From assembly GCA_030295235.1 (NCBI GenBank), contig AP026173.1, positions 186,001 through 250,000 of the forward strand: a stretch of DNA of 64,000 nt, given 5' to 3'. Made by a program: the position numbers and the translations under genes. Within the stretch, counting starts at the first letter, position 1. Each line of letters begins with the position of its first letter. The DNA comes from Fistulifera solaris (Eukaryota; Bacillariophyta; Bacillariophyceae; Naviculales; Stauroneidaceae). Positions 2,346 to 61,131 of the stretch are shown here, in pieces. The notes below the pieces were generated by a model. It was not told the DNA's origin. It searched no databases and saw only the letters and a program-made list of their open reading frames with translations.

Positions 2346-2662
2346 TATTCCCTTCCCGGAAGCAATGCTTGGTTCGTTGAAAGACGTTCGACGATGTCAT
2401 CTGGCAGCTAATAAGCAACAAGGATGCTCTCCGCAGTGCACCTGCATGACAATCACGGAATGTAAGTTAAGGGGTATGACGACGAGGTCCTCGGCGGATA
2501 GACTCTCGGTCTTCAGCATTTTCTCGACTGTAGATGTTGAGCTTTGTGAACAAGGGTAGCGAAATACTTGAATGCTGGATTTGACCTACGCGTCGACACG
2601 CAGCAAAATTCAATTCACGCTTCTAAACGGTAATCTTCAAAGTTCAACTAGCTAAATATTGC
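2346..2662. other. Short convergent intergenic region
   Basis: This lies between two convergent 3' ends. A 64-codon frame at 2365-2559 has no recognisable similarity or composition bias, and I do not call it. The stretch probably contains the two 3' UTRs. Confidence 0.4.
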
Positions 2663-14600: not shown

Positions 14601-15255
14601 CGACAATGTCTTCCGAAGAGGCCGCCAACAACTCCAACAAAATCGAAGTCGACTGATAGATCGATTTGCCCGTCGCATTGCGGAGTATCGTTTCCGTGAA
14701 GGAGAGAAGCACCAGGAGGTACGACATCACTTCCTGGGGTACATCTAAAGTATCTTCCAAGTTTTTGACGTATTCACGCTTCGGATCCTCTGACGGAACT
14801 AGGAGAATCGATCGACTGTGTTTAACCAGAATTGATTCCAAAGCAGCATCGATGACATTCAATTGATGAATCCAGCAATGCAAATCAATCTATGACGTAA
14901 TAAATGAGTACCGAATTCGTTCCCAAAAGTATGACTTTGAAAAACGTACCTGCTGTTCGAGCGATCGCTGATGCACAGGTTGCAACAAATTCACCAATTT
15001 TTCCAAGGAACCCTCAACAAGAGGTAACTTGACAGCCTGCAACTCATCAAAGACATTTTGAAAGACATCATCGTCTAGATTTTTGAGGCTGGATAGCCAG
15101 TTCCACTGGCTAAGATAGTAGGCATTTTGCAGGATAATCCGCAGCAGAAATGAGTAAAAAGAAAAAATACCCTTGAGGTTTGTCAAACGTTTCCGCTCGA
15201 ATTGTAAACAAGAAAGCGATGGGTACGTTAAGCAATCAAAAATATAGGCAAACAA
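2663..15255 (-). CDS. Giant HECT-type E3 ubiquitin ligase (HUWE1/TOM1/UPL1-2 class)
   Basis: Transfers ubiquitin from an E2 to substrates through a HECT-domain cysteine. At about 4,150 residues it is close to human HUWE1. From the N-terminus: DUF908-like and DUF913-like armadillo regions (about 14.9-12.3 kb, with WGTRALGLGL), a UBA domain at about 10.5 kb (MEMGFTRDHALDAIES), a long acidic tract at 7.55-7.75 kb, ubiquitin-binding repeats at about 5.8-6.05 kb (GFDPEVFNSLPVEMQ, DPSVLAELPEDIRRDII) and a HECT domain from about 4.0 kb to the end (GGLSREFF, HLSYFRFVGRIVGKAV). A clear 60-nt intron, 14890-14949 with GTACGT donor, lies near the 5' end; the exact start is uncertain. The frame changes by one base near 14505, 12265, 8290, 5135 and 2866-2871. 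After the last, AGFAELQGMRGIQKF and the catalytic AHTCFNSLD (Cys codon 2765-2767) continue in the shifted frame to TAA at 2663-2665. Likely sequencing errors or tiny introns. Family call very secure. Confidence 0.88.
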
Positions 15256-25000: not shown

Positions 25001-28000
25001 CCATAGAAGTAACATTTCTTTGTGCTGTTGGTGTCACCAAAGTTAAAACCCTCTATTTGGATTGTAATTCCACCTTCGTCAATAGCGTCGTTTGGTGCAA
25101 CCAATTCGATGTAGGGCAACGAGAGACATGCCGGTCCGAAGTACCCCGGTGAGCACTGGCGACACATGTCCCCTGCAAAGTTGTGAGGGCACTCACAGCA
25201 AGCTTTGCTGCCGCGACGCACTGCAGCTGCCACCGTTGTAACAGATAGGGCATTCAACACATTTCTCTCCAATCTGCTTGTAGTTTGGAACACATTCATC
25301 GCAGCACTCTCCTGTATACCCAACAGTACAAGAGCAAACATTTGGCAAAGCGCAGAAACCATTGCCGTTGCACGAGTTGCACACGTTGCATTTAGCCACC
25401 GAGCATGATTCCCCAAGCCAATCGTCATCGCAACTGCATACATCAAAATCTAAACACTGACCATGACCGTTGCAGAATCCAAGACTCTGGCATGTTGGTG
25501 TTCCACAAGCCGGTCCACCCCATCCTTCCTCACAGATGCAGTAGTCAGGAAAAACACAAAACGCCTTGATTCGAACAATTAAGATCACATATAGGAGTAT
25601 AGTTCGAAGGGAGAAATGGAACTATAGTGATTTGCGGGAGACTTGGGTCTTCATCATCGCCGTGGATGCGATTGTCAATTACAGCCTCTGAGAGATCGGT
25701 TGGCAAAGTAAAGCGATTGTTGGTTGCATTGACCACCATGTCTGCAGGAAAGGCTCCACTGAAACCAAAAGTTGTTATTTCCAATCGTGACGACGGATAG
25801 TCATCAAAGTCATTGCCTTCGATATTCCATGTCGACAGTCCATTCGAGGCCAAAGAAAGGACAGCCCTTTCACCTGACGTTGAAAGCTTGGCTTGATTCT
25901 TTCTGAAAATGTTACCATGAATTCTAGCATACGGTTGGTGATTCCTATATAAGGCCAAATGAATGATATTGTCCCCTTCATTGCTCTCAACAAGGTTACC
26001 TTCAAAAGCAATTGATCTGAAAGAATGTAGGGTTACAATGTTACAACTGGGGCAGGAGTTTGACAGGAACCGGCTGGGCAAAAAAGAGGCAGCGAACATT
26101 AGAAGCAGCCAAGGATGGGAACAGAGTCAGCCGAAGTACACGCACCATAATGATACTGATATTTTTTCATTTTGAGATGAACTGGTAACAAACAAAGCCG
26201 AACGTAGATCAATAAAATTAACTCCAGCAATGTAGATACCAAGGTTCGACCCCCATCAATTCTCAATCCGTTGTTATTGGAGTTGGAAATTGAGCTGCAG
26301 AGCAAGAGACGAGACAGACCACGTGAGTTGGTACATGGACTGTCCATACAGTTTAGTCCCACTTTAAAAGCACGAGTGCATTTACCTGTCAGAGATATTG
26401 AAAAAATTGCTTCCGCCCTTGGAGTAAATCTGTGTCCCGGTTGGATCTTTTTCAAAATTCGCCACAAAATGCGAACCTGAAATCTTTACGCTTTTCGCCT
26501 TTGTTTACCAAAAGTCCTTCTTGTGCTGAGAAGGTGATGTTTGTGTCTTGGATTACCACAGACTGCGCATTGAAAGAGGAGTCAACATAGACTCCACGGC
26601 GTTTACTCCTCTCAATTACTGAATCCCGAATGAGAAAATCACCGGGAGCATCGTAAGCGTAGACACCGTCGGAGCCCGATCCCTCGATCAACCCACTATT
26701 AATCATCACTCCCACACGTTCAAGGTAAACAGCAGCTGGCATAGAAGCATATCCTCCATTGACAAGGATGAAGTGCCTCAGAACAGACCCATCGGTGTAT
26801 TCGGCTTCCTGCGATGTCACTGCCTTCCGCACCAGGACCGAACCAGATCCCACCCCATTCGCTCGATGATGGAATTTCGGAATCACCGTGCAGCATTCAA
26901 AAGTCGATCTGTAGAAGACAGGAGTACTGGATGGGTAGTATTGCCCAGAACACGAAACTCTCCTTCAGTGATACTGAATGATCACTGACGGACCGAAGAG
27001 AATCCTGACTCCAGCTTCAAAATAAGGACAGCATCCGGATGCTGAAGAACGATTGAGCGAGGTGCGTAGTACAAGCCAGCTTCTACCAAAATGGTGACTG
27101 CTTCGAAGACCGTCCCACTGATCGTTCGTCCCACCGTATCCACGATTGAACCCATGGGAGGCGAATTAATTTTGGCGCTCAAGGTTTCATCCACATAAAT
27201 CCCTGAATAAAAAACAGAAGCAAGTGTAGCTTGACTCAAGCTGTCAAATGTCTTTTCTTTTAACTCCTCAAAGCTTGTTGTGCCCCAGTAGTTGGAACCT
27301 ATCGTATATATACCACCATCAACATCTTGGAACTTCGTCGACACACTGACAAAAAAACTTCAAGGCCGCTCCGTTTGTAAGGATGTTCTCCGTTAATGCA
27401 AGAGAAGTATCTGTATTTCCTCGGAGGAAAATCGCACTGTATCCAGAGCAGTTATCAAAACGATTGAATGACGCTTGGGAAGTCTGGGAGTCGACGCTCA
27501 ATAAGCCGTAGGGCGACTCCACATTAACACTCGAAATTAGGTTTCCAGTCACATTTAAAGTGGATACTCGAAGTCTGAGGCAATCTAGACGGCAAGAAAA
27601 AGAATCAAAGGTGTTGTTGCGAAGTACAAGCGAGCGACTGGTGACATCGAGCGCAAAATTGGTAGTGGCACCACTCTCGCCCACGATGCGGTTACCAATC
27701 ATTTTGAAACTACCGGTACCTCCTTGATTCACATAGATAAGGGAGTTCGGGTTTCCCTTGAAGTTGATCAAGTTGTCGTGCCATTCAACCAAAAGAGAGC
27801 CTCTATAGTGGCCATGCGCATAGAATACGTGATAATAAAGATTCGGGACCTCAAATCTGCAACCTTTCATCGCCAAAGGACCCACATTATAACCAGCGTG
27901 CAGCGGATACCCGTAATAAATCCCCGGTAGCAGAGTCGCATCGAACACCACTGCTTCCACAAGAGACGTTCCCCGAATTATCGAGGTCAAGCCCTCTCAT

Positions 28001-31000
28001 ATATTGATACTTCGGTCGCATTTCGACATTCGTGACAACTAGATTCACAGCGTCTTGACTGTAGACAAACGATCTCCCTTCGCTCGACATAAAGCCATTC
28101 TTAACAGTGACGTTCCCACTCCCCTGCATACGGATAATTGCTGGACCATTAGATTTTGATGTGTCAACGAAATTAAAGCCATCAAGAGAGAAACTTTTAT
28201 CCGCCGCAAGGAATAGATGGAGCCCACCTCCGCTGCAATCAAGCATAGTGATATTGCGGAAAAACGCAGCCTGTTTGATCAATATTGGGCTCGCTGTACC
28301 TGATAAGTTAACATGTTCTAGAAAAACACTGCCTGCCATAGAAGCCACTTCAATACCGCCCCATCGGGTCCCAGATGCCTTGAAGAACACAGGTTTTTCC
28401 GGTTTCCGACATTCGTGACAACTAGATTCACAGCGTCTTGACTGTAGACAAACGATCTCCCCTTCGCTCGACATAAAGCCATTCTTAACAGTGACGTTCC
28501 CACTCCCCTGCATACGGATAATTGCTGGACCATTAGATTTTGATGTGTCAACGAAATTAAAGCCATCAAGAGAGAAACTTTTATCCGCTTCGCAAGGAAT
28601 AGATGGAGCCCACCTCCGCTGCAATCAAGCATAGTGATATTGCGGAAAAACGCAGCCTGTTTGATCAATATTGGGCTCGCTGTACCTGATAAGTTAACAT
28701 GTTCTAGAAAAACACTGCCTGCCATAGAAGCCACTTCAATACCGCCCCATCGGGTCCCAGATGCCTTGAAGAACACAGGTTTTTCCGGTAACCCTTTGCT
28801 ATGAGCGAACCCTTATCCACCAACAGACTTGATCCCGGATCCATCCAGATCAACACACCTGGTTCTAACACAAGTTTTCCATCAATCAGAAGCGACCCTT
28901 GTGACGTGTAATTACCCTCAGACAGAGTTAAGTTCATATTGTGTTCCAGGCGACCGCTCAAAACGTTTCCGTTCGGAAGAAATGGGATCGTTCGCGTTTA
29001 CTGCTTCTCCCGATGCATTGGGTGTCAGCAAGTATGGACTGAAGATAAGTTCGGAGTACCGAGTTTCGTCAAGCCCATCAAAAATACGCTCAATCACCTC
29101 CAAAGGATCAGGAGAGCCCCAGTAAGACATGGAAGCATCAATCTTAGGGCGTTTCTGATGCGGACTCCAACACTTGAACATAGTATTGCGCCGTATCATT
29201 TCGGAAGGGCGTTGTAAAGATGTTACCGGATAAAGTTGTTTCTCGTGATGGCCACTGCCGAATCACAATCAGGGCAGGGTTTGCCGTGGATGTTGCTCTA
29301 AGGTTCTCCGCGAAGACGCCTTGAATATTGGTAGCACTATAGTCAGTTCTGTACGAAACATCCATCACGATTTGGGCAGAAATGTTGCTGAAAACATTTC
29401 CGATGCTTCAAGACCGAAGGGACTTTTAGCATCATAGGAAAGGCGCATCGCAGCCCCATAGAGAATATCCCAGTTGTGAAGTTGGTTGTTTTGGACATAT
29501 ATTTGGTTACAGTTCTCACAATCCAAATTGAGAGCGTAGGAACTAGTGCGAACCACGTTATCTCCGTTAAAAACGTTGCCCTTCACCGAGGCAGAGCAGC
29601 CGTTGGTGCAATCCAGGTTCAAGCCACCATTCGTCCCTCTGAAGCTGTTGTTTAAAATCTCGTAGTAGATGGACTGGTGCAAGCCGTTGAGGTGGATGGC
29701 GTGAATTTGTTGTTCCCTCAAAATGAGAATCAACCACGTTCACACTTTTGACGTATTGACCCGTGTATACCCCCTTGCCGCCTGAAACAGCAATTGTCGA
29801 AAGCGATACAACTGAACGCCCTATCAATTCGGATGGCTTGACCCCCACAGGCTTCAAAATTGCTCAAATAGACACTGAAATCGTTGCCCTCAATGTTCCA
29901 GGAGCTCAATCCCCGGGAAACGATGCAATCGCCTTGAGTGCCGTTGACTCGGATCGAATTTAACTCCAACGCGCCTGAACCAGTATGCTCAATGCCAACA
30001 ATAGCGCCATCAATATTAAAATGCGAACAATTCATTGGAATTGCCGACTTGAACAGCAAACCCCTCCACCAAGTGCCATCCAGGGGCCGGAGGAAGATAG
30101 GAGAATTCTCCATGCCCGAGGCAACGAGGCTGCCGTGTACCACAATACCACGTGAGGGAGCAAAATTTATTATGGTGTCTGGACTCAACTCTAGAGTGGC
30201 ATTGTCGAGCACAATGAGCGACAAGCTGCAATTGTACTCTGAAGACGGCAAAACAAAGGTACCGTTCCAAACTACACCGCCAAGCGAACCGTCTGGAAGG
30301 ATCGGACCTGGTAGCTGCACATCAATAAGCGGGCCGTTGACAAGGGGATCTAATAGAATCGTCTTGAGCATGAAGACAGCGTGAATTGGCGTTTTCAGGC
30401 CGTCCTTCACTGTGGTGCGGACACCCTGCAAATCATCCTGGAATACACCCCAGTAGTTTGCTGGAAGGTCGACCATGTTGCTCGTCGTGAAACCACTCTG
30501 AAGAGTTTGGAGATTGACGGAAACCGAAGCAGTCGTGTTGATAAACAGATTCTGTTTGATAGGCGAGAATGGGTAGGTATGCAATTGCAGCAGCTCGACA
30601 GCAACACTGTTAATAACTGCATTCTTTTCAAACACGGTTGACCCAGTCAAATAGTTGCTACTACCTTGAAGATAAATCAAGACGTTACCAGCAGTACACT
30701 GTCTGACAATATTTCCAGCGAGCCTCCAAGAATTGTCCGTATCGCACCGACAAGTGCAGAATTGCGTAGCCTGTCGAGGACGACGGCGAATCTTCAACGG
30801 TATTGTTGTAGACGACTAGGTCGCCGGGCGTGACACCCGGTGCCTTGAACCCAGATCCCACCGGATAAACTTTTGATAACCGTGTTGTCGGAAACAGAGA
30901 TATTCATGCATTGCCACTGGAGATCAAGATGCAACCGACCGTTGTAAAGGTGTTACGATCGATGGCGCTCCCTCGTAGCCGTCTTTGGACCATCGTATTG

Positions 31001-37731: not shown

Positions 37732-39007
37732 TCATTGAGACGCCGGCGTCGGCGGTCGACGTAGCGCTGTGACTGCTATCGATATGTCATCGCGATAGCG
37801 CCCTGCTTGGCTTGCTGCCAGGCTTGAGCGGCGGCAAATACTAAATGTTCACAAGCGGATATAGGATGCACACCCGTGGCCTCAAAAGAGAGTGAGCCAG
37901 TATTTTGGCGATATCTCCTTCGTCTAAATAATCCATCATTCCATCTGTAGCACTTATAGCAAAGATGTAAACATCGTCATCTTCTTCGTGCGATCTCACC
38001 GAGCCGTCATTTTCGACTTGATATCCTTCCATTTCCGTTGCCACAATCGTGGGAATATCCAATACATGCACAATCGGATCCGGTATGACCCCCATCTTCC
38101 CCGCCGCCCAATCCCCAATCGAACGACTCATGGCCAGACCCGTCGGCGCCATCGTTTCGGGATCTTGATACACCACCCGACTGGTCCCCCGGATCGGAAT
38201 GTACACTTGCCCTCCCGCCGCTTCGACACGGGCTTTTTCTTCCGGCAAATTGGGTTTGTCTTCCCGGGTCATGTACACAATTTCACACCGCATCGTCGAA
38301 GGACGGTACGCTACGATAAAACTCCGTGAATCGCCCGCATTGGCCACGTAGATTTTGGATCCCTGCCGCAGAACCACCGTGGCAGTGCAACCCCCGATGG
38401 ATCGGCGGGGACGCGTTGATCCAGTTCAATGAATGTTTCGGACAACATGTTGGCCGTCTGTTTCATAATATCCTCAGGGGAGGAACAGTGTTCCAGTGCG
38501 TTCCGCAATTTGGCCGCGAGTAAGGGCGGCAGCTCGGTCGCGGCAAATTCCGACACTTGTTCTCCCCGCGGCGCATGACCATCAAAGACTCCCATCAGTA
38601 TTCGTTCTTGTTGAATGGCTGCATTCGATGATGATGATGATTCTGTCGTGATATAATACGGAGACACAATGACGGCCCGATCTTGATTGATTTGATCGGT
38701 GAGTTGACCTCCTTTGTACCCAATCAAGGTCAAAGTCACGGCATCCGTCGCGATGGATTCTTGCAAAACACCCACCGAATGTCGATCCGCATGAATTCGT
38801 TTTGTATCACGAATTTTTGGAAAGCTACTTTGACGGCATCGTAATTGTAATGCACATCGTGCGGCTTTTGGGGCAACCATAGTACGGACAGCGCGGATCG
38901 CGTTTGTGCGGAGAAGCTTCCATCGCGGCGGTCGATGACGACGACATGGGCCGCGAACTCCATGCGGCCGCCGTTGTGAGTACAATGAGAGGTGATAGAA
39001 GATGCAT
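37732..39007 (-). CDS. PP2C-type protein phosphatase, signal peptide-bearing (paralogue 1)
   Basis: A metal-dependent Ser/Thr phosphatase of the PPM/PP2C fold. Metal-binding aspartate motifs are visible as VFDGHA, NAGDSRSF, ATDGMMD and, near the end, RYRDDISIA. QINQDR and GLAMSRSIGD are also family hallmarks. The start at 39005-39007 gives MHLLSPLIVLTTAAA then W, a signal peptide with an aromatic +1 residue that could direct plastid import; a frame change lies right there, so the +1 residue is uncertain. Conserved sequence passes through five single-base frame changes (near 38965, 38775, 38394, 37893 and 37805), all at short homopolymers; each is consistent with one missing base. The real C-terminus, with AWQQAKQGRYRDD, ends at 37732. 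It is head-to-head with a homologue at 39529. Family secure, localisation inferred. Confidence 0.8.
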
Positions 39008-39528
39008 ATTGTTGGTATTGCTAGTGTTGTGACTCTGTTGGTGCGGAGAATTCGCGATTCGCACGGCAAAGGCCGATCGGACCGAGCGTCGAGAATGATT
39101 ATATGGAAAATGTGATACTGCGGAGCGACACTGTCGTAACATTGCGACAAAACTCGCTTTTTTTCCTGGACGAGAAGCAACAGCTGGAGCAGTAATGGAA
39201 AAAGTGGCTCTCCGTCTTATTTGCAGGACGCCGTCATGGTCGAAACGAAAAAAAAAACAGCCGTTCCAAGCCACCGAAAAAAAAAGCGAAGTTGCTGACA
39301 CGTCGACACGTCACCCTTTCTTCTTTATGGCTTATACTCACGAGCAGTGACTCTGCAAATGGAGTAGATGTCACTCTCTCTGTGACATTCGTCCAGTCAA
39401 ATATTATTGTCGCCAAACGTGGTTTGCTTCAGTCACGAGTTGCCTCATTCTTGTTGATGGTTGATGTCTGATGTCTGATGTCGTTTCATCTGAATCCACA
39501 AAATTATTCACAATAGTAGACTACAATC
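39008..39528. promoter_or_regulatory. Shared divergent promoter region of two PP2C genes
   Basis: 520 bp separate the two divergent phosphatase starts, so both promoters must lie here. I see three direct copies of TGATGTC at 39462-39482 with no spacer, about 50-65 bp upstream of the plus-strand ATG, and A-runs at 39249-39258 and 39281-39289. None is a recognised diatom element. Confidence 0.45.
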
Positions 39529-40699
39529 ATGTCCCCTTCTACTTTCTTGGCGTTCTTCTTTCTCCTCGTCGGTGTATCAAGTCGCAACGACGACTCGTAT
39601 TTACTGCTTCCCCGCGATTTGGCGTTTGATTCAACGACACGTCTCGCGCTCCAAAGTCTCCGCCAGTCGCCCGACACGCCCTTTCTCTACTTGCAATCGT
39701 TATTTCCGCATCATTCTTTGGGGGAGCCATACTGGAATCATACCGATTACGGAACATTGGCATTGGTGGGAAGTAAGGGAGGACATGTGTTGGAACAAAT
39801 CAATCAAGATCGGTCCTTTGTTTGGCTTTCTTCCAAAGGAGTATTGTCGGGTGTCATGGATGGACACGGAACGGCCGGTCATTTTGTGGCGGAATACGCG
39901 CGACACGATTTGTTGCAACGCTTCCTGAATGCTACTTCAAACGATATCGAAGCGTGGTTGCACGAGGCGTTTCTACAAACCGATCATGCGATACCGGATG
40001 ATTTGGCACAGCAAGGTGGATGTACCTGTTCTTTGGTCTACCAAAACGGTGAACGAATCTATTTTGCCAATACCGGTGACTCGCAATCCTTTTGGCGGCC
40101 GCCTTGTCGACGGGAATTGACGAAATGCAGGTGCAAATCATGTACGAAACGCGTTTGGACAAACCCGGTCATCCCGACGAGGCGCGGCGGTTGCAACACG
40201 CTGGGGCCCAGGTCACGCCAGAAACCGCAGAGGATGATGCTCGTGTGTGGGCGACCGATCCGACCACGGGACACACCAGTGGTTTGGCCATGAGTCGCGT
40301 CCTGGGCGATCGACAGCATACGGCCGTGATTGCGGATCCTATCATCCAAGTCATTGATTTGAAGGCAATGAAAGAAAAGGTGTTACAAGAATACGATGCT
40401 TATCGTACACAACAATGCCAACAAGTAACGATCCACGCAGATGGTTCCATTGAACCTTGTCCTCTGGCGGAGACACCGGAGGCGGTGCACTTTTTGTGGT
40501 TTCGGCCACCGATGGTGTCATGGATTTTTTGAAACCTATCGAAATAGCACAAACTATGGCTGGTTATTTGTATGGAAACCAAGGGCATCCTTATTTGGGA
40601 ATGGAAGATCTTTTGTGGCAATCGACACAACTGTGGCAACAACACGGACAGTACCGCGATGACATGGCCATTGCGTATGCGAAAACAGTGCAAGTATAG
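39529..40699 (+). CDS. PP2C-type protein phosphatase, secretory (paralogue 2)
   Basis: Homologue of the divergent neighbour, sharing the N-terminal block (FDSTTRLALQSL here, FSAQTRSALSVL there), SKGGHVLEQINQDRS and the metal motifs: VMDGHG, NTGDSQSF, ATDGVMD and QYRDDMAIA. The N-terminus, MSPSTFLAFFFLLVGVSS, is a signal peptide; the next residues are RND, which does not fit the plastid ASAF rule, so the secretory pathway is more likely. Two single-base frame changes, at the T-run 40090-40093 and near 40460, interrupt the frame, and conserved sequence continues in the next frame each time (GIDEMQVQIMYETRLDKPGH, then GGALFVVSATDGVMDF). Each fits one missing base. The acid and charged insert around YRTQQCQQVTIHADGS is shared in position with paralogue 1. 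About 390 residues. Confidence 0.8.
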
Positions 40700-45482: not shown

Positions 45483-45905
45483 ACAAAAAAGAACGGGCGA
45501 ATAATAATGCGATTGTGGCGCGCTCCTCGCGATTCGCGATCTTGGCGATTGGTGACTGAATCCAGTCGTGACGAAATCCGCCTACATTTTTGTGACTATA
45601 GTAGGGAATGACGAAATCGGCTCCTTACTACGTAGATTGAGCGGAACGAAGTTCCTCTTGTACATAAAGGGATAGAGTAAATCACCGCTACGACACTCTG
45701 TGCGCGGTGGAACCCAGCAGATGTTCTCGCCGTCGGCACGAGCTTTTTCTATTTATTTTCGATCAAACACAAATGCCATGATAAAGAGAGTAATGCAATC
45801 CCATTTCTGTGACCTCTTTCATCCCCAAGTACTTTCTTTCTTTGCTTTGATCCCCTTAATACCTGATTCTTCTGTATGGGTCGTTTTCGGCACCCAATTT
45901 CTCTC
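45483..45905. other. Divergent intergenic region
   Basis: Upstream of both the oxygenase-like gene (-) and the UvrB-UvrC gene (+). It should contain both promoters. An open 69-codon frame at 45700-45909 is not protein-like. No element recognised. Confidence 0.4.
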
Positions 45906-48900
45906 ATGATTCTGACATTTCTCGCACGGAGTCGATCGCTCGTATGGGTTAACGCGTGGAGTGCATCCTTGCGTACAACAAAGAGAGGGCGAGCACTCTT
46001 CGAACCATTTTATTTCGTGAATAATCGATCCGGTCGTAGCTTGTCGGTATCGGCGGTGGATCTTGCCGATGTCGACACTGAAAGCGCAGACGGATCGTTT
46101 GCATCGGATGCCTTTCAAGTTCAGGCGCCCTTTCCACCGGCGGGAGATCAACCAGCAGCGATACAGGCGTTGATTGAGCGGGTGCAGCAAGGTGATCGGT
46201 TTGCCTTATTGCGGGGTTGCACTGGCACAGGAAAGACGTTGGTCATGAGTCACGTGATTGCCGGCACGCAAAAGCCGACCCTCGTCTTGTGTCACAACAA
46301 GACGTTGGCGGCGCAATTGGCGCGGGAATTGCGGGCCTTTCTCGGACCCGTCGTCGAACTGTTTGTCAGTTATTACAATCATTACCGTCCCGAGTTTTAT
46401 CGCGAAACGACGGGAACGTATATGGCGAAAAAATCGTCAGTCAATCCGGATTTGGACGTGTTGCGGCACCGAGCGACGCGTGCCCTCGCGTCGCGAAGAA
46501 ATGTGGTGGTAGTCGCGTCGGTGAGTTGCTTGTTTGGTTTGGGGCTGCCCAAGGAATATTTGGATGCCTGTGTACACTACAAGACCCATGACCCTTTGGA
46601 TTGGGATGAGTTCGTAGAGAAGTTGACTCGATTGCAGTACCGAATGGCGGTAGACGATGACAGTTTTGAAAGAGGGAAATACCAGGTTTTACACGATGAC
46701 AGCTCGGACTCGAAAGTGATAACCTTATGGCCTCCTTACGAAAAATTCCCCATGCAGCTGGTTGTCGCTCCAATGGCGGCGAATTCGACGCAATTTTCGG
46801 TTCGAAGGATTCTACAAGGAAATCAAGACGGATTTCATCCAATCAACGGATGCAAACTTTTCCCCGCTAGTCATCATGTTACACATGATATGGAAGCGGC
46901 GTGTCTCTCCATTGAGGAAGAATTACAGGAAAGGATTAAATACTTCAATGACATGGGGAACAAAGACGCGTGCAATCGCTTGCAAGTTTCTGTATTAAGA
47001 GACTTGGATCAACTTCGTACTTGGCACAGTTGCAAGGGCATTGAGAACTACAGTCGCCATTTAGCGGGTCGACCTGCTGGCTTACCTCCCGACACTTTAT
47101 TGGATTACATGAGACTACTTAATGGGGATGATTGGCTACTCATGATGGATGAAAGCCACGTGACGCTGCCTCAACTGAGCAGTATGTTTCGAGGCGATCA
47201 GTCTCGAAAGCGTCAATTAGTCAAACACGGTTTTCGGTTGCCATCTGCATTGGACAACCGCCCACTCAATGAACACGAATTCTGGGACCGTGCCAGTCAA
47301 ACAATTTTTGTTTCGGCGACTCCGTCACCCCGTGAACTTGCACTAACAAACAGCGACCCCATAGATATGATCATCCGACCCACCCATGTTTGTGACCCGA
47401 AGATCGAGGTTCGGCCGGCTGATGGAAAGCACATCAATGATTTGATCGAGGAGGTAAAAACTCGCGCAAAGAAAAAGCAAGGAAGTCTCGTTATCACCCT
47501 GACTAAGCGAGATGCAGAAGATCTGGCTAGCCATTTGGAAGGATGTGGTGTGAAGAGTGCGTATTTGCATTCCGGTTTGAAAACGCTCGAGCGCTCGAAT
47601 GCTTTGCGAGCTTTGCAACTGCGAGAAATCGACTGTATAGTTGGCATCAACTGTTTGCGTGAGGGACTCGACTTGCCGCAAGTATCTCTAGTGGCGGTTC
47701 TTAATGCCGACTGTGAAGGATTCCTGCGGTCCGAATCGGCATTGCTTCAAGTGGTCGGTCGTGCGGCTCGAAACGTTCATGGAATGGCAATCTTTTATGC
47801 GAACCGAGTGACAGATAGCATGAAACGGTGCATGGATTTGACAGCGCATCGACGACAATTACAGCTTGACTACAATAAGAAGAATGGGTGTTCTACGAGA
47901 TCAACAACAGGATCTTCGGCGCTATCCTTTTTGATTTACTCAAGGAACAGATTGAGTTGGAAAAGGGCTGATGGCAGAAGAGTCCAAAGCAGTCCAACTT
48001 GCTAGTTTTACTTCGGAGCCTTTACAAATTATTTCTGCTCAGAAAGGAAAAAGTCAGATTGTGACTGACCACATACCGAATACACCCGGCGTTTACTTCT
48101 GGAAAGACGACGAAGGATCGATACTGTATATTGGGAAGGGTGTCAATCTTCGTAGTCGTGTTAAATCATATATTTCGCCAAGTGCCAAACACGGCCCTCG
48201 TATCAAGGAAATGGTTCGGCGAGCCAAGTCGGTTGACGTTGTCTTGACAGCCAGCGAACGCGACGCATTACTTCTCGAATCAAATTACATTAAGCATCAC
48301 CAGCCCCCTTTTAATGTTCTTTTGAAAGATGATGAACATTATCCTTACATTTGTGCCAGTGTGGGAGACTCGATTCCGAGTCTCACTGTTGTGCCATACC
48401 GGAAGCCAGAACATGTCAGTGGATCGTCGCGTTACCGATACTTTGGCCCGTATACGAGCTTCCAAGAAATCAATGCCATTCTTGATGACATAGAGCGAAT
48501 GTATGACTTGAGAGTTAAATCATTCATGACTCGCCAAGGATCTTTGTCGAAAGAAGCATACAATGAGCTCTTTGACAAAGCATTAGAGGAGATTTTCGGC
48601 GACTCCAGAGGGCTTTCTCACAATTTGCGCATACGGCGCCGCCAATACGAAGAGGCGGGGCTGCTATTTGATTCAGAGAGTAATGCATGCAGGGATGTTG
48701 TAACCGTCCAGCTTTTACAAGATGATAAAGCCATCGTGAGTGTGATGCAACTTCGAAGTGGGATCATGGCTGGAAGGTATAAATATACCTGTCAAGTCTC
48801 CGCTGGTCTTGGGGATGAGGATCTAGGATCGGTCCTTCAGACTGTTCTGACCGAAAGACATTATCCGTCAGGAGGCGAACACTCAACAAGCTGGTTTCCC

Positions 48901-49697
48901 GACAATGTGTTACTCTCTCTTCCTGCGTTAGACGTAAAAGTTTTGAAAGAGAGTATTCGAGAAAGTCGTTCACGGATCGAACCGAATAGAAAAGGAAGGA
49001 TTCAAGTTAGGACAGCTGCAACACGTGGTGCGCAGAAGGAAATTGATGAAAGAACTTTAGAGTTTGCAACAAAAACATGTTTCAGGACTTACTTACCCAT
49101 GCCAACCAATACAGCATTTCTTTGAATGGAGATTTGGCGTCCACGGAGTTGGCTGATCTATTGGCTTTAGAAAATCCTCCGTCGCGCATCGAGTGCTACG
49201 ATATCAGCCATACGCAGGGAGAGAATGCCGTTGCATCGAGGGTCGTGTTTGAGAATGGCGAGCCGCAGCCTCACTTATACCGACAATTTGTAATCCGATC
49301 TGTCGTTGGTATCGATGATTATGCTAGTATAGAGGAAGTTTTGGAGCGGCGTTTTCGGCGGGCGTTTAAATCCAATACGGATCTGGATGGAGACGACCCA
49401 TGGGCAGTTCCAGATCTAGTAGTGATTGATGGAGGTAAAGGACAGTTAAACGCAGCTGTAAAAGGAATTTCGAAAGCAGCTGAATCACCGGAAGGCCAAT
49501 TCGATATTCGATCACTAGTCGCCGTATGCGCTTTGGCGAAAGACAAGGAGGAAGTTTTTGTGCCTGGTCGAGGTGATCCAGTTAATGATCACCCCGACTC
49601 GCGCGCTTTGCTTTTGTTGAGAGCCCTCCGTGACGAAAGCCATCGTTTTGCATTGAAGGCACATCGAAAGAGGCGGTCGGTTTTGAAACATGTATAG
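45906..49697 (+). CDS. UvrB-UvrC fusion: bacterial-type nucleotide excision repair, plastid-targeted
   Basis: Bacterial UvrB verifies DNA damage as a helicase-like ATPase, and UvrC makes both incisions. The UvrB part has Walker A GCTGTGKT, the hairpin FVSYYNHYRPEFY, ASVSCLFGLG, GIENYSRH, MMDESHVTLPQ, GFRLPSALDNRPL and the HELICc motifs GINCLREGLDLPQ and QVVGRAAR. The UvrC part has a GIY-YIG nuclease (TPGVYFW, LYIGKG), a UVR-like helix (QYEEAGLLFDSESNACRD) and the RNase H-like nuclease (ECYDISHTQGE, DLVVIDGGKGQL, RDESHRFA). Both are in one orientation with no gap: protein-like sequence (FDLLKEQIELEKG) bridges them. Three frame changes, at G-runs 47886-47888 and 47965-47967 and the A-run 49071-49075, are each resolved by one missing base; the result is one frame of about 1,264 residues. 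The first ATG in the targeting context gives MILTFLARSRSLVWVNA then W, a diatom plastid presequence. Ends without UvrC's C-terminal helix-hairpin-helix pair. Confidence 0.85.
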
Positions 49698-49764
49698 TAC
49701 AAGTCCCAAACAACTTATAGAACCTAGACTTCCCCTTTGTTGGAAATTTTCGATTATTTTATGA

Positions 49765-51763: not shown

Positions 51764-53271
51764 ATGATTCGAACAATCCTCAATCTCTTGCTCTTCTTGC
51801 ATCTCTTGGTGCAAGGAGACGCTTACGCGTACGGCTATGGCGGCACCTCCATGTGGGACAAAATGCCGGTCATGACGTCGGACGCCTCGGAGCCCGCCCA
51901 CCGGTCGTACAATTTGGCTCGAAATGGTGGATACGGGTACATGGGATACGATGGATGGGGCGGATACGGAATGAATCGTTATTCGCCCTACATGAGTTAC
52001 GGGTAAGTGGAGGAAGCGCCCGGGCGTGTTGCAAAATTCCGAGGCCTCACTGACTGGGGCGTGCTTTCTTCTTTCTTTTGCAGAGGTTACAACGATTATT
52101 ACGGCGGATATGGTCGTGGTTATTCGTCGTACGGGTACGGAGGATATTCGCCGTATTACAATAGGTAAGAAATGAGAGCCTTAGTGCTGTCTCTGAAAGA
52201 GAAAGGTTCCTGTCATGAAGTTCTTGCGGAGGTTTCCTGATTCTCACTTGTTCCCTTCCTTTAGGGGATACAACGATTATTACGGAGGATACGGACGTGG
52301 CTACGGATACGGAGGTTATTCTCCTTATTACAACAGGTAAGTTTATGTTATTGTTGTACGTAGAGGAGCCCGTTCGGTTGTCTGTGAATGAGGCAGCCTT
52401 CACTTCACGTGTACAAGTCATGTTGTATTGCATCCGTTTATCAAATGTCTCACGCTGTCCTCTTCTTTTTTGTCCTTCTTCAGTGGGTACTCTTCGTACG
52501 GATACGGAGGTTACTCCCCATACTACAGGTAAGAGCTTTGGAGTTGCTATTATTGCCAAGTTGACTTGAACATTTTTCTGCTGGCCTGTCTTGATGATTC
52601 GATTTGCAGATAAAAATGTCTTCTGTGTGACTGTTTCGTCTCATGCTTTCGTCTCATTCTTTTCTTTTAGCTCGTACGGCTATGGATCTGGGTAAGAACG
52701 TCGTTCGCTCATTTCGTAAAAATGCCTGCTCGAGCTGGTGTCTCATTCTTCTTTTAATTTCTTATTCATTCAGCAGATACGGCGGATACGGTGGATACGG
52801 TGGATACGGAGGCTATGGAGGTTATGGCGGATACGGTGGATACGGCCTCAGCTCGTACTACCGCCCCTACGAGTCGGACAAAATTGCTCGCGTGAGTCGC
52901 TGGACTGGCTCGGATGCTCGATACGGATACGACAGCTACTACCCTCGTTCGTACGGATATGGCTACGGTGGTGGCTACGGCGGTGGCTACGGCGGTGGCT
53001 ATTACAATAAGTAAGAAGATAAAGTTGGTGTTGGGATGATTTTGCCATCGTTTGCCTCATTGTTGTATTTGTCTCTTCCAGCTATTATGGCGGCCGCTAT
53101 GGTTCTGGCTATTACAATAACGGATACTACAATCCTTACAACAGTTACTACAACCGTGACCCCTACGCGATGAACCGAGGATACGGCATGAACTGGGGCT
53201 CGTCGTGGAGATCTCCTTTGTCTCCGGACGATATCACGTCGCGCAAGTCCTACTTTGACTGGCAGGCGTAA
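51764..53271 (+). CDS. Gly/Tyr-rich secreted protein with duplicated mini-exons (paralogue 1)
   Basis: A predicted secreted structural protein of 294 residues from seven exons: 51764-52002, 52084-52164, 52265-52336, 52484-52528, 52671-52691, 52774-53010 and 53082-53271. Every intron has GTAAG-like donors and a pyrimidine-AG acceptor, and every junction is phase 2, so exons can be lost or duplicated without changing frame. The signal peptide is MIRTILNLLLFLHLLVQGDA. Exons 2-4 encode versions of GYNDYYGGYGRGY / GYGGYSPYYN, clearly related to one another; exon 6 holds a YGG minirepeat. Then come SRWTGSDARYGY and the C-terminal block SWRSPLSPDDITSRKS. Gly/Tyr-rich repeats are common in cell-wall, adhesive or elastomeric proteins, but no known family matches. 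The adjacent gene at 54022 shares RWTGS and the C-terminal block. The splice model gives one open frame throughout, which supports it strongly. Confidence 0.82.
52777..52850 (+). repeat. Coding minisatellite of GGATACGGT-like units
   Basis: Nine-base units encoding Tyr-Gly-Gly repeat within exon 6 of the Gly/Tyr-rich gene. Units differ mainly at third positions (GGATACGGC, GGATACGGT, GGCTATGGA), so they are not a fresh slippage product. Confidence 0.75.
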
Positions 53272-55775: not shown

Positions 55776-58700
55776 TTACACATTATTCATGAGGCGCGCT
55801 AGGCAAACGTTGCAGGAGGGCCTCATCGCAAAACACTTAGAAGCCCTCAAAAGAGCCATATGTTTATCGCTGAGAGGAGGTCCTTTGTCCAACGTCTTGT
55901 CGGTCACACCACTCCAATCATCAAAGTTTGAAGTGTCGAACAGACTCTTGATCGTGGGAATCCATGGAGCTTGTATTGCTCGCTCTCTCATTCTGACCGT
56001 GCTGAGATCACCGAACCACCTATGACTTAAAATGTCTTTTTCTCCGCGAGCCAAGGAACCAAGACGGTTTGATGGAGACTTTTCCAGTAACCTTGAAATG
56101 AAGTCAACCGCCTCCGGAGATCGTCCTTCCAATTCGGGAAAGTCTTCTTCAACGATCAGCCGATAAAGTTCGAACTGCTCAATACCGTCCTCATAAAAGG
56201 ACTAAAGCCCATGACCATTTCATAGCTCAAAACCCCCAGTGCCCAGTGGTCGACAGGCCAACTATGGCCTTGCGATATCACAATTTCAGGTGCAAGGTAG
56301 GCCGGGGTGCCACAAAGGGTGAATGTTTGATCCAAGACTTTCTTTGTGAAGCCGAAGTCGATCAGCTTAGGAAAACCAAACCTGTCGAGCATAACGTTTT
56401 CAGGTTTGAGATCGCGGTATACATATTTCTTTTGATGCAAATGAGCCAGGGCATCTGCAATTCCCAGCAAGTAAAAGCGAGCTCTATCCTCGTGTATCTT
56501 GATCCGACCGTCATCATTGTTGAGAATTGAAAATAGCTCTCCGCCTGGCACAAAATCCAGTAGCATATAAACAAATGCAGCGTCTTGAAAGGTTTGGAAA
56601 AGATCGATGATGAAGGGATGGTTCACATTCAGAAGAACATCTTTCTCGCGCTTACAAACCTCTACCTCTCCTTCGGTAATAAGGTGGTACTTCGATTGGA
56701 TCTTCAAAACGTAGGGTTGCTGCTTCTTAGCCTCCTTGTCGACGACCAACCAAACCTGACCAAATTCTCCTTCACCCAAACAAACCCGTCTTTCCAGGTT
56801 TTCAAGCTTGATATTCAGATTGAGGCTTGCCTTCGGCGAGTATAAGTGAAGATTATCATTGTCAAGGGCATCGGAAGATGATTTTGCTTTCTTGGCCTTT
56901 TTCTCATCTTTCAATGTACGTGGTTTCGAACTTCTAGTGCTTTCAGCTGTCACTTCAACATTTGCCTTTGTCGACTTCGGAGAAGCTAGTGGACTCTCCA
57001 TAGCGTTAGTATCGTTTGTAACAACGACTTGATCACCAAAGAACGCATAATAATCTTTCACGGACAGAACACCGCACGTGCAGTCGGATTCTGCAGTTAC
57101 TTTGGACAACGACCTCCCCTTCAGCGACTTATTATCTCTGGCCGACTGAAATAAGTTCTCCCCAAAATGTGCCCCTTCGGAAATCAGAAGTAAGTTTCGC
57201 CCCTCCGTTTCATAGACCTTCCCAGATCGAACGAAATAAATTGCAGCATCTACGTCTTGATCGGCTTCAATGATCGTGTCGCCTTTTGAATATTCGACGT
57301 TCTTAATCAACCGAGTTAGACCCACAATTTCGTAGTGTTTCAAAGGTCTTCCAGGTTTTCGTTCAAAAGATCTTACGGAATGAAGAGTTCTGGAATGAAT
57401 CGGAACCAAACTGGAACCCATAGCTTGGTCTTTGAGTTCTCTCGATACAACGTAGGCCTTTCCGTGAGTCAAAGCAACCACATTTGCTTTCATGATTGGT
57501 TCTTCGGCGAGTATTGCATGTTTTCCAAAGTAATCACCAGGGCCCATAATTTTGTTGTCTTTACTTAAACGGCCAACCTTTACGTCTCGGCACTCCACAC
57601 TACCTTCTGCTATCAAGAAAAACTTGTCGCCAATGTTGTCTTGCTTCGCTAAGGTTTCGCCTTTTTGAACTTGACGAGGGTGAGCAGATTGGAAAGCTTG
57701 TGGAGCTGTTCTGTCGACGCATTCTCTAAAAAGTCGAGCTTTTCTAATAAAGCTCGCTTGTGTACAGTGCTCCTAGTCGCCTCGTCCTGAAGCAAGTGCC
57801 TGAAGGTCGTCTGGTCGAATCGGTACAAAACTGAATCGGTAGTAGCCGTTGCAGATGCAAGACGACGTGAGTTGTGCAGCAATGCTTCCTCACCGAAGGA
57901 ATCACCATTCGTTGCCACATCATGCCTTTCACCATCAATGATAATGTCACACTGTCCGTCAGCGACGACATAGAAGTACTTATCCTCGTCGCCTTGCGCA
58001 AACAACTGGGTCCCCGCTGGAACATTGACCTTTTCGAATGCAGCTGTGAGTGACTTAATGGTCTTGTCAGGTAAATTTTCAAAGACGAATCGCTTTTTGA
58101 TTGCATTCTTCAGAAGTCGTTCCTCTTGATCCGTTTTTGGGTGTCGAGGAGCTTTAAAATTTGTAGGCAGCTTGGTTGGGACCTGATAGACATTACCAGC
58201 CTGACGTATAACAGGTACACCGTCTTTTCCTCCTTGGTCCTCGAAACGAGCTATTCTGGCAATAAACGAAGCTTTTTTCTTTTCTCTTTCGCGGAGAAAG
58301 TAGCGGGCCTGACAACTTCTTGGGTTGAATAGGGCTTAAGTCAGGTTCGACTATCTTTGTTTCTGCGCGCTTCTTCTTTTCCTTTTTCTCTTTCTTGTCC
58401 TTCTCTTTCTTACTGCTTTTCGACTTTTTTGGCGACGACTTAGGAGACTCAAACTCAGCGAGTGGTGGCACTGGAATCGGTGCAGCGTTTGAGGGGTCTT
58501 TTATTTCTTCAGTCGCATCGTGACGCATCGAAGATTCGCCGTCGTCCTCGTAGAGCTCTTCATCCGCTTCATGAATTACTTCCGGATGCTTATCGGCATT
58601 GAACACCTCGCGTATAGGACCGTCTTCATTGGAGAAGCTTTCGGATCCATCTTGCCATGTTTCGACGAATAGGCCTCTATTGCACTGTACAGGCAGAGAG

Positions 58701-60466
58701 AATCGATGTCGCTCCTTGGTGGGTGAAGTGGGCTCGGAAGAAGCAGAATCTGAATGATTACTGTTGTCGAGAGGACGTATAACTGCCGGGCCATTCTGCT
58801 TTATTTGATTTTCATAAGTGTTGCGGGCTATTCTCACAGGGCTTATGAGATCTTTGTTTCGAGGAGGAGTGAGAGATTGCTCGCGTTTTATTTGATTCTC
58901 AAATACGCCCCGAGCCATCATGACAGGGCTGGCAATTTCTTTGGGAGGAGGCGGTGGTGGCGGAGGTTGTTGTTCCTCTGAGGGTTCACTATCAATCTCG
59001 GATACTTCAATGCGCTCTGTTCGCAAAACTTCAGATTCTGCCTCTTCGTTTGCAACAGGCGTCACATTGTGCGTTGATGTGTCGTCTAATTCTAGTCCTG
59101 TCATGTCTTGTCGGATGTCATCGTGCATCATGGGTGGTTTTGGGAGTTCTTGCTTCGCCGCATTATTGGCAACTTTGCTCAAGAAGCGCTCGGCGACCGT
59201 ACCGCGTTTTGCACTGATAGGGCCACGATAATGTCCAGGTTCAACCACAACTGGCCTCTGAGCTTTATTTTCAGTAGCGTTGGTAGCATCACCTTCGGCA
59301 TCCGTCGTCTCAATAATGGCAGGAAACGCTGGCTGCCTAACGGATGCAGCGGGTTGCACTGAAGCAGCTGCATCTTTTCCCCATCGCCGTGTCGTCCCTG
59401 CAAAGCTGACGGGTGGGGTCGCTTTCTGGGTAGCATCGCTAACCGAAGACGGAAAAAGTTCCCTGAGGCCGTCCACCCGAACGATTTCCCAAGAATTTGT
59501 TCCTCAATTCGGAAAAAGACGTTGCCGAGTTGTCTAAAGAGTTTTTCGATTTTTCATTTTCCTGTAGCGAAACTTCTGAAGGGTCAAATCCGTCCATTGA
59601 AATCGAAGTATTCGAAGATTGCAATCCTCCTTTGTCTGTTTTCAAATCCATTGAAGGAACATCATTCACCTCGGCGGAAACGAATTCATTCTCTATACTA
59701 TGGGAGCTTGTTAGTGCTAGCAGAGGCGTTTCGACCTCGTCAATCACTTCAGTCACTTCATCGTCTTCCGATTTCCTTTCGGTCACTTCATCGCTCGCTT
59801 CGATCCTATTTTCCCCGTCAACGACATCGTCGGTTAGTTCAACGGTCGCTTCAATTTTCTTTTCTTTGACTTTGTCCTTGGATCTCTTTTTCTCCTTTTT
59901 CACTTTCGCCGATTTGTTGGATTTTGACGATCGAGGTACATCGTCATCCCTCTTTTGGGTGATTTTTGGTGCTTGGTGAGTTTCTTCGGAGATATTATTA
60001 CTGGCGAAGAAGTTATTGACGGATAAGGGTTCAGAAGCATATTCAGGTTGGCATCATTCTGTTTCTTCGCATTATCAATATCAAAGACTTCTCGACAGGC
60101 TTCCATCGTCAAAACCGCGCATACGCAGGCATCGTCGGCCGCTGTGACCGAGTAGGGTGAAATCACAATGGCAGAATCGTTGCCTTCGGAAGCTTTCAAT
60201 AATTCTTCACCAAAATTGCACCCACTCGGCAGTTTGATCGGCGCCATACCATCACGTCCCAACCATACGCTTCCCGTAATGACCAAGTAAAGGGCTGCCT
60301 TGGTTTCTTCATGAAGCTCGGTTATAATTTCGTCTTTATTGTAGGGTCGCACATCAATCTTACTGACCAACTCTTTGTATTGCGTATTCGTCAGTTTGCT
60401 TTCACGAAAGACATTTATACATTTGAGATCGTAATAAAGTGAATTGTAGTCGTCGAGTGCTGGCAT
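55776..60466 (-). CDS. Cyclic-nucleotide-dependent protein kinase (PKG-like, AGC group)
   Basis: A kinase of about 1,560 residues with several cyclic-nucleotide-binding (CNB) folds, resembling protist PKGs. A first, degenerate CNB fold is at the N-terminus (about 59.99-60.47 kb, CNFGEELL). A long acidic, Lys-rich linker follows, with a polyproline run near 58.95 kb. A canonical CNB domain lies at about 57.7-58.0 kb (FGEEALLHNSRRLASATA, the phosphate-binding cassette). Two more folds sit at 57.0-57.6 kb with weakened cassettes (YFGKHAILAEE, HFGENLFQ). The kinase domain (about 55.9-56.8 kb) has GEGEFGQVW, VLKIQSK, YRDLKPENVM, LIDFGFTK and TLCGTPAYLAPE. Single-base frame changes near 59945, 59490, 58280, 57665 and 56195 lie at homopolymers, and conserved sequence resumes in the next frame each time. 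Whether cGMP or cAMP is the ligand cannot be told. Kinase and CNB calls are secure. Confidence 0.86.
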
Positions 60467-61131
60467 GTTGCTATTGAACTATAGCTTTTAATGATGCAAA
60501 AGATAGATGAAGCTCATCAATAGCTTTCACTGGAAACAAAAAAAGAGAAAACAAGACGGCGGAGTAATTTAGGGGGACTTCTTTGGCTTCTCCTGACCAC
60601 GACAGACCAACGCGGTATCACTTGTGCTTGTACAGTTTCATGCGATAGACTTCGCGCAAGATTTCTCTACAGTTTTGAGGACACTCGTGAAAGACGGGAC
60701 TGTTCACAAGTCACAATGACCGTCACATGCCGAAGCAGAAAGTGTCACTCCAGTCAGTCACAATATTTATTTCGAGAAACACGTCGTAACACGCAATACG
60801 CGTTTCTTCGGGAATCATCTAAGGTTATGCTTACAAAATTAAGGTAAACAAACAAACTTACCAGCATAGTTTCCCTTTTCATCCGTCGATCACTAACGCG
60901 TATTTGAATCCGTTATCAGAATAAAGCGGAAAAACATACTATGTGAAAGGTCGCCTCCTCCTTGTTTACACACGAAAGAATTGCTTTCCCTTTAGCTCAT
61001 TTGGTATATCAATAAGATCTAGATTAAATTTTGATAATGTAAGCGCGCAACGCATTTCAAAAAGTCTTAATATTTATTGATACTACCAGCCCCTTCACTT
61101 AACTTCCGCTTCCACCGATAGATTGCTATAT
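60467..61131. other. Intergenic region
   Basis: Promoter region of the kinase gene (-). No protein-like frame. A tRNA-like box A at about 60990 was considered and rejected. Otherwise AT-rich and featureless. Confidence 0.4.

Follow-up and report, generated by a model that had tools for sequence, protein, structure and literature searches.

The window analysed here, a 64,000-nucleotide stretch of Fistulifera solaris DNA, contains a UvrB homologue followed on a single strand by the N-terminal half and then the C-terminal half of UvrC, with less than 190 nt between the two homologies. A sequence-only reading had claimed this head-to-tail order, and profile matches to TIGR00631, PF01541, TIGR00194 and PF08459 confirmed the homologies. 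The features of the locus are as follows:

45876-49697, + strand: UvrB-UvrC gene, a UvrB homologue and then both UvrC nuclease halves
45876-48005, + strand: UvrB ORF (TIGR00631, 680.1 bits, profile positions 2-585 of 658)
47971-49125, + strand: UvrC N-half ORF (PF01541, E 5.9e-7; TIGR00194, 172.9 bits)
49077-49697, + strand: UvrC RNase H ORF (PF08459, E 5.4e-45)
45876-46112, + strand: N-terminal extension of 79 residues without UvrB homology (TIGR00631 match from residue 80)
46113-47888, + strand: UvrB helicase core (TIGR00631, 680 bits, alignment A1; profile matches extend to about 47903)
46563-46859, + strand: UvrB domain 2 (UvrA-binding), provisionally eroded (columns 151-250 of alignment A1)
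47889-48072, + strand: UvrB/UvrC junction, about 165-185 nt between homologies, with frame changes and no UVR module
47971-49076, + strand: UvrC N-terminal half, a GIY-YIG nuclease and a residual RNase H-like segment
49066-49080, + strand: frame change at the A run 49071-49075, within uninterrupted UvrC homology
49077-49697, + strand: UvrC C-terminal RNase H nuclease without HhH2 (stop 49695-49697)

The UvrB half keeps the Walker A motif GCTGTGKT, the beta-hairpin YYNHYRPEFY, DESH, LREGLDLP and QVVGRAARN (alignment A1, motif check). One tyrosine of the hairpin is replaced by histidine, a change shared with the Tepidibacter row L002. The score of 680.1 bits lies below the TIGR00631 equivalog cut-off of 750.1. 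An AlphaFold2 model of the core (mean pLDDT 78) found its best PDB match in UvrB 3uwx_B (TM 0.84), and the codon model placed no frame break within the core at a penalty of 12 or more. The first 40 residues of the N-terminal extension contain 7 Arg, 1 Lys and neither Asp nor Glu by composition count, and on this composition the extension is probably an organelle-targeting presequence. A second in-frame ATG at 45906 is the start that had been given in the sequence-only reading.

Domain 2 of the UvrB half is far less well conserved. PF17757 was not found at E values up to 10, with the same profile detecting the domain in 7/7 control UvrBs at 67-118 bits. A custom domain 2 profile scored 22.5 bits over the first half only, the second half being unrecognised in every frame. 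Moreover, 12/36 conserved columns (33%) are kept within domain 2 versus 214/308 (69%) elsewhere. The UvrA-binding domain therefore appears eroded, a conclusion that is provisional because a compensating pair of frame errors at 46770/46829 gains approximately 19 bits. This pair appears at penalty 9, is mixed with many other shifts at penalty 6 and is absent at 12 or more. Compensating frame errors inside domain 2 were not accepted.

In the UvrC half, alignment with 9 bacterial UvrCs revealed Tyr, Arg and Glu in the GIY-YIG domain and Asp, Asp and His in the RNase H domain, which we take to be the respective catalytic residues. The RNase H half matched the PDB UvrC 2nrr at 6.8e-22. Scored apart, the two halves reached 172.9 and 146.2 bits against TIGR00194, for which the whole-protein cut-off is 285.45. 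A PF22920 match in the N-terminal half (5.4e-4) fell below its cut-off, and a structural model of that half built without an alignment had a pLDDT of 32. The four-Cys region is deleted (0/4 cysteines in the same alignment), and a short remnant, YEEAGLLFD, aligns to the UVR module region. HhH2 is missing, with the stop at 49695 and a convergent ORF ending at 49765 leaving little room for it. The UvrC part has no basic leader at its own start.

The UVR module (PF02151) was absent from both halves when a custom profile was run in three frames (best reported score -0.9 bits); the same custom profile found 8/8 held-out bacterial proteins at 23-52 bits. All three segments keep their catalytic residues, and docking and accessory modules are missing. 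None of the apparent losses (UVR modules, UvrA-binding domain, UvrC cysteines, HhH2) had been remarked on in the sequence-only reading.

The given sequence does contain the frame changes. Read literally, it holds two overlapping ORFs with a TGATG stop/start overlap at 47969-47973, the sequence at 47966-47976 being GGCTGATGGCA, and the frame breaks again near 49072. The peptide FDLLKEQIELEKG is encoded in the third frame (47930-47968), and the UvrB frame, if left unchanged, ends at 48005, 35 nt into the UvrC ORF. When trained on the window, a codon model gave near-equal fits for three missing-base breaks and for two breaks, of which one is an extra base near 47955-47968. The three-break path is ahead by about 7.4 bits before the cost of its additional break, so that at the junction two missing bases and one extra base fit almost equally well. 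It had been claimed that there are three breaks, all in the same direction, and that missing bases are the only obstacles to a single frame; neither statement is supported, since the model allows an extra base. Moreover, 13 GT..AG pairs with donors at 47840-48000 and acceptors no further than 48080 also join the frames without a stop, although their donors match 2-3/6 consensus positions and none is a GTRAGT donor. Every reading that joins the frames yields one chain. A fusion in a nuclear genome stands as the best reading, with the homologies so close together and the docking modules of both halves lost; that FDLLKEQIELEKG is certainly the frame used is not supported.

A closer look at the neighbourhood supports the earlier placement in a eukaryotic genome. 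Eukaryotic genes lie on both sides on one contig, including a DUF908/DUF913/UBA/UBM/HECT ligase, Rtf2 and a cyclic-nucleotide (cNMP) kinase. At 42727, GTAAGTGAG opens an intron-like, stop-containing stretch inside PhoD (joined by eye). GC3 is 0.41-0.51 in the UvrB-UvrC gene and 0.43-0.59 in seven host genes. No UvrA-type match was found among the subset of window ORFs scanned with Pfam. The neighbouring kinase profile is split, with positions 6-198 in one ORF and 211-263 in the next, in another frame; the second piece scores 18.2 bits, below the cut-off, and the two ORFs overlap by 43 nt. A PP2C is likewise divided between positions 31-123 in one ORF and 141-201 in the next (19.7 bits, just below the cut-off). 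The codon model, trained partly on the same neighbours, called 2 breaks in 3.8 kb in the UvrB-UvrC gene, and 5 in 12.2 kb and 5 in 4.6 kb in two neighbours. Its call for the HECT gene disagrees with the frames judged by eye. Since similar breaks occur in nearby genes, those of the UvrB-UvrC gene look like assembly indels, and an indel-rich assembly is likely to lie behind them. Programmed frameshifting or a variant code was set aside because the breaks span unrelated genes and run in both directions. The codon score was rejected as evidence of nativeness because bacterial uvrB genes (mean 0.148 bits per codon, n=52) score as high as host genes.

A search of genome contigs with UvrB returned two loci, from a planctomycete (48% identity) and Tepidibacter (44%). 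Identity to full-length bacterial UvrBs from several phyla was approximately 42-49%. Among the matches listed, it was at most 45.5% for plasmids (40 of 200 records) and at most 45.9% for phages (20 of 36 records). Viral contigs gave no match when searched with UvrB and each UvrC piece; with the UvrB alignment as query they gave 29 loci, at 46% or less for full-length matches and up to 54% for short pieces. A UvrC match beside UvrB was found at 0/62 UvrB loci, a weak test because the flanks spanned about 0.6-6 kb and some loci were cut at contig ends. The donor tree that had been proposed was built for the UvrB half (47 rows, none known to be cyanobacterial), but it named no donor, the F. solaris branch being 4.72 changes per column long with no supported neighbour. 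A C-terminal motif, presumably cyanobacterial, was not matched among the UvrBs collected. Among the matches listed from open-licence full texts, there was no paper on diatom UvrB or UvrC or on a UvrB-UvrC fusion.

These data can be read in several ways. The two to three frame breaks, the several missing domains and the very long UvrB branch (4.72), which decay would also produce, are what would be expected of a decaying pseudogene, in which a bacterial-derived or organellar repair gene carries real frameshifts and has lost domains. However, similar breaks split the domains of adjacent genes, the ATPase motifs, hairpin and both nuclease active sites are intact, and erosion is selective (33% in domain 2 versus 69% elsewhere) where decay should be more even; we consider a pseudogene unlikely. 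It is still harder to favour two adjacent genes or a dicistronic message, with UvrB ending at the TGA and UvrC starting at the overlapping ATG. Whilst GGCTGATGGCA has the form of a bacterial stop/start overlap, such overlaps are a trait of bacterial operons and unexpected in a nuclear genome. Moreover, the UvrB frame must itself shift before reaching the TGA, the UvrC part has no basic leader, and two separate proteins would be without docking modules.

Removal of a short intron by the spliceosome at the junction would restore the frame, leaving the fusion in place with a different linker. The 13 frame-joining pairs and the intron-like stretch in PhoD (donor at 42727) are in keeping with this, but the best donors match 3/6 consensus positions, no GTRAGT lies in the junction and the break at 49072 is left unexplained, making an intron very improbable. 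The least credible origin is bacterial contamination or a chimeric assembly join: UvrB and UvrC are bacterial families and identity to bacterial UvrBs is about 42-49%, yet genes with eukaryotic domains flank both sides of one contig, a basic leader precedes UvrB, GC3 resembles that of host genes (0.41-0.51 and 0.43-0.59), and none of the bacterial or viral loci examined is close or fused.

Taken together, these data make it reasonably likely that the locus is a single nuclear gene whose product is one chain of approximately 1,270 residues, comprising a presequence, the UvrB core, a short linker, GIY-YIG and RNase H. On the best reading, the product is a one-chain UvrBC excinuclease that is targeted to an organelle and may act independently of UvrA. 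The frame breaks would be sequencing or assembly indels and the chain would be imported into an organelle, where the UvrB part may verify damage through its beta-hairpin and ATPase and the tethered UvrC part may cut on the 3′ side of the lesion with its GIY-YIG domain and on the 5′ side with its RNase H domain. To our knowledge, UvrBC is not expected in eukaryotes, and how bulky lesions in organelle DNA are handled is largely an open question.

Bacterial UvrB and UvrC carry matching UVR modules by which the former recruits the latter, a contact needed for 3′ incision, and the UVR-bearing domain 4 of UvrB keeps its ATPase inhibited unless both UvrA and single-stranded DNA are there (PMC7835731). 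In the fused chain, covalent linkage would take the place of UVR docking, and the ATPase brake would be lifted by the loss of domain 4. The apparent erosion of domain 2 suggests that loading no longer depends on UvrA in the bacterial manner. A stronger proposal, which we regard as possible though rather doubtful, is a UvrA-free excinuclease that finds, verifies and cuts lesions in the organelle alone. After the fusion, the UVRs and the auto-inhibitory domain 4 would have become dispensable and disappeared, and domain 2 would have seen its UvrA-docking arginine patch erode. If true, it would be a minimal helicase and dual-nuclease repair machine. A fusion lacking both docking modules would offer an independent test of the role of UVR-UVR contact in bringing UvrC to UvrB, and an eroded UvrA interface would make the claim of UvrA-independent UvrBC, as put in PMC5814901, testable with one protein.

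The UvrB half shares with bacterial UvrB (TIGR00631; PDB 3uwx, 2fdc, 9ga3) the helicase core, beta-hairpin and motifs over residues 80-676, but differs in its apparently eroded domain 2, absent C-terminal UVR, N-terminal leader and fused UvrC. Likewise, bacterial UvrC (TIGR00194; PDB 1yd6, 2nrr, 3c65) has GIY-YIG and RNase H in identical order with the same active-site residues, whereas here the four-Cys region is deleted, the UVR is vestigial, HhH2 and an own leader are absent, and the whole lies behind UvrB. Two UvrCs, that of the planctomycete hit (L030) and a relative (L028), are likewise without the middle domain and HhH2, but retain the cysteines and UVR. Fusions of a DEDD exonuclease to the UvrC N-terminus (PRK07883 models) similarly join the GIY-YIG part of UvrC to an enzyme; they are bacterial, have an exonuclease as partner and lack both the UvrB helicase and a complete UvrC, an architecture that we assume beyond the family names and matched range. 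A parallel in function is the UvrBC complex described by Springall et al. 2017 (PMC5814901), who report that UvrBC finds lesions without UvrA and state that evidence for damage excision by UvrBC alone is lacking. That unit too combines UvrB and UvrC and recognises lesions via the UvrB hairpin, but is described there as two separate bacterial proteins held non-covalently, whereas the F. solaris locus would encode one covalent chain.

Three long ORFs lie on the + strand within 45876-49697 of the window, and their matches to UvrB and UvrC are well beyond chance level:

45876-48005, + strand: UvrB homologue (TIGR00631, 680.1 bits, profile positions 2-585 of 658, from residue 80)
47971-49125, + strand: N-terminal half of UvrC (GIY-YIG PF01541, E 5.9e-7; TIGR00194, 172.9 bits; PDB 1yd6, E 6.2e-18)
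49077-49697, + strand: RNase H half of UvrC (PF08459, E 5.4e-45; PDB 2nrr, E 6.8e-22)

PDB UvrB chains also match the first ORF (E down to 5.4e-162). The sequence-only reading had placed UvrB and UvrC head to tail here, which the TIGR00631, PF01541, TIGR00194 and PF08459 matches in the three ORFs bear out; its coordinates were correct, the start it gave (45906) being the second in-frame ATG. A UvrB-UvrC fusion is the best reading of 45876-49697.

The window is eukaryotic DNA, since it encodes a giant ligase with a HECT domain, Rtf2, a cyclic-nucleotide-binding protein kinase, PP2C phosphatases and a PhoD gene. The last is interrupted, as judged by eye, by a stretch starting with GTAAGTGAG at 42727. 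Elsewhere, a long stretch at 23580-28624 (- strand) has weak EGF-like and beta-helix matches over some nine short ORFs, its fragmentation reflecting either introns or assembly errors, and two small ORFs at 51764-53014 (80 and 123 aa), with Gly-Tyr-rich ends and hydrophobic N-terminal parts, possibly encode secreted structural proteins. Conserved domains of several neighbours are split:

~2.5-14.7 kb: giant ligase with DUF908, DUF913, UBA, UBM and HECT (domain matches across four ORFs)
2450-14726, 37844-40529 and 55779-60478: split HECT, PP2C and protein kinase domains, in overlapping ORFs of different frames

Frame breaks are thus common to the UvrB-UvrC gene and its neighbours, and are not peculiar to the former. 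Two ORFs that differ in frame share the kinase domain (profile 6-198 in the first, 211-263 in the second, which scores 18.2 bits, below the cut-off), and an intron hardly fits because these ORFs overlap by 43 nt. One PP2C is divided likewise (profile 31-123 and 141-201, the latter at 19.7 bits, just below the cut-off), while another matches at 97-224 in a second frame, with no match in the upstream ORF. The four ligase ORFs overlap by 46, 28 and 127 nt; the HECT match ends at profile position 247 of 306 and its remainder is readable by eye in another frame, a reading with which the break called there by a codon model disagrees. That model was built from 7,030 window codons, leaving out the UvrB-UvrC gene and including the neighbour pieces, and was scanned over 13 gene spans at a break penalty of 10. 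Breaks were called in five spans: five in the ligase (12.2 kb), five in the kinase (4.6 kb), one in each PP2C and two in the UvrB-UvrC gene; the eight single-ORF spans had none, as expected given how they were picked. Outside the UvrB-UvrC gene, 9/12 breaks were missing-base and 3/12 extra-base. An assembly with many indel errors is the simplest explanation, and as it seems rich in one-base indels, frame-break findings anywhere in the window call for caution.

The UvrB match runs to 47888 by the frame-aware profile, or to ~47903 by TIGR00631, and UvrC homology starts at 48070-48073, therefore leaving a gap of ~165-185 nt. The three missing-base breaks proposed from sequence alone are one of two counts that fit. 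Passage through FDLLKEQIELEKG by two missing bases, as noted in the sequence-only reading, reaches the UvrC frame, but so does one extra base near 47955-47968, which gives a two-break alternative under the codon model; both paths stand, because the better codon-usage fit of the former (~7.4 bits) precedes the cost of its additional break. Splicing is another possible route, with thirteen GT..AG pairs able to connect the frames, every donor being poor. All three kinds of joining produce one chain. Alternatively, a genuine stop in the junction would leave two separate ORFs. In a nuclear genome a TGATG stop/start overlap would be strange, and merely to arrive at that stop the UvrB frame must change once. 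Inside uninterrupted UvrC homology lies one more frame change, at ~49072.

More telling for the fusion than the break count is that both parts have lost their docking modules. A home-built UVR profile recovered the module in all eight bacterial proteins held out, UvrBs and UvrCs (23-52 bits; seeds were regex-picked segments, with 40 of the 80 proteins fetched, many being fragments, yielding none), and its top reported score in any of the three frames across 45876-49700 was -0.9 bits. Pfam UVR was likewise absent from the UvrB and UvrC segments at E up to 10. The window gave no match to the UvrA-interaction domain PF17757 at E up to 10, and 7/7 control UvrBs contained it (67-118 bits), two divergent viral-contig copies among them. 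Domain 2, which binds UvrA, retained 12/36 conserved columns versus 214/308 in the remainder (Fisher p 5e-5); 11 controls, treated leave-one-out, retained 68-100% and 90-95%, respectively. At four positions where 10 or 11 of 11 bacterial UvrBs have arginine, this gene has Met, Gln, Leu and Val; these arginines presumably correspond to the UvrA-contact arginines of Bacillus UvrB. Reading errors may nonetheless lie within domain 2, because paired frame changes at 46770 and 46829 would raise the UvrB match by ~19 bits, at penalty 9 though not at penalties of at least 12.

Alignment with 11 bacterial UvrBs showed intact Walker A, DESH, LREGLD and GRAARN motifs and a largely preserved hairpin. AlphaFold2 predicted the UvrB part with a mean pLDDT of 78, and the model matched PDB UvrB 3uwx_B with TM 0.84; it was least confident in the latter half of domain 2 and past ~residue 606, in the tail that corresponds to the junction translated in the first frame. 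The UvrC part, aligned with 9 bacterial UvrCs, keeps its GIY-YIG residues and the Asp, Asp and His of the RNase H site, and retains none of the four cysteines that serve the UvrC iron-sulphur cluster. HhH2 is absent, with a stop at 49695-49697 and a convergent ORF ending at 49765. The UvrCs of the planctomycete matched by UvrB and its relatives (L028-L038) are short, with open frames of 455-565 aa, and TIGR00194 matches them in two pieces, the middle part being absent; two placed in the alignment also lack HhH2.

Among the UvrBs examined, identity to full-length proteins was 49% or less (short pieces up to 54%), with no clear best-matching group. In a 47-row tree, in which cyanobacteria were not knowingly sampled, the window branch measured 4.72 changes per column and had no supported neighbour. 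No UvrC match lay beside uvrB at any of 62 loci, within the DNA examined at each, and a UvrC search of ten genomes (the planctomycete with eight relatives, plus Tepidibacter) placed uvrC and uvrB on different contigs in every case. A divergent UvrB (L061:3995-5953, 78-kb viral contig, end branch 3.86 in the tree) is encoded near a sigma-70 region 4 protein and retains domain 2 and UVR. A 58.9-kb IMG/VR contig (L071) has no ORF >110 aa under table 11 in the 6.7 kb examined; under table 4 (TGA as Trp), 753-4400 encodes a 727-aa UvrB that contains UVR and the UvrA-interaction domain, plus a 480-aa ORF lacking a Pfam match. It is probably a TGA-recoded genome with a uvrB gene.

The 79-residue leader is basic, its first 40 residues including neither Asp nor Glu, and so suggests import into an organelle. 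According to PMC7835731, a UvrC element resembling the UvrB C-terminal domain is needed for UvrB-UvrC interaction, this contact is required for the pre-incision complex and 3' incision, and domain 4 holds down the UvrB ATPase until UvrA and single-stranded DNA arrive. With a covalent link the UVR contact would no longer be needed, and without domain 4 the ATPase would lose its brake. UvrBC finds lesions without UvrA via the UvrB hairpin, according to PMC5814901, which also notes a lack of evidence for damage excision by UvrBC alone. The enzyme is thus likely an organelle-located UvrBC that would verify damage and carry out both incisions; the eroded domain 2 suggests that UvrA may be dispensable. 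The fusion is read from a single error-rich contig.
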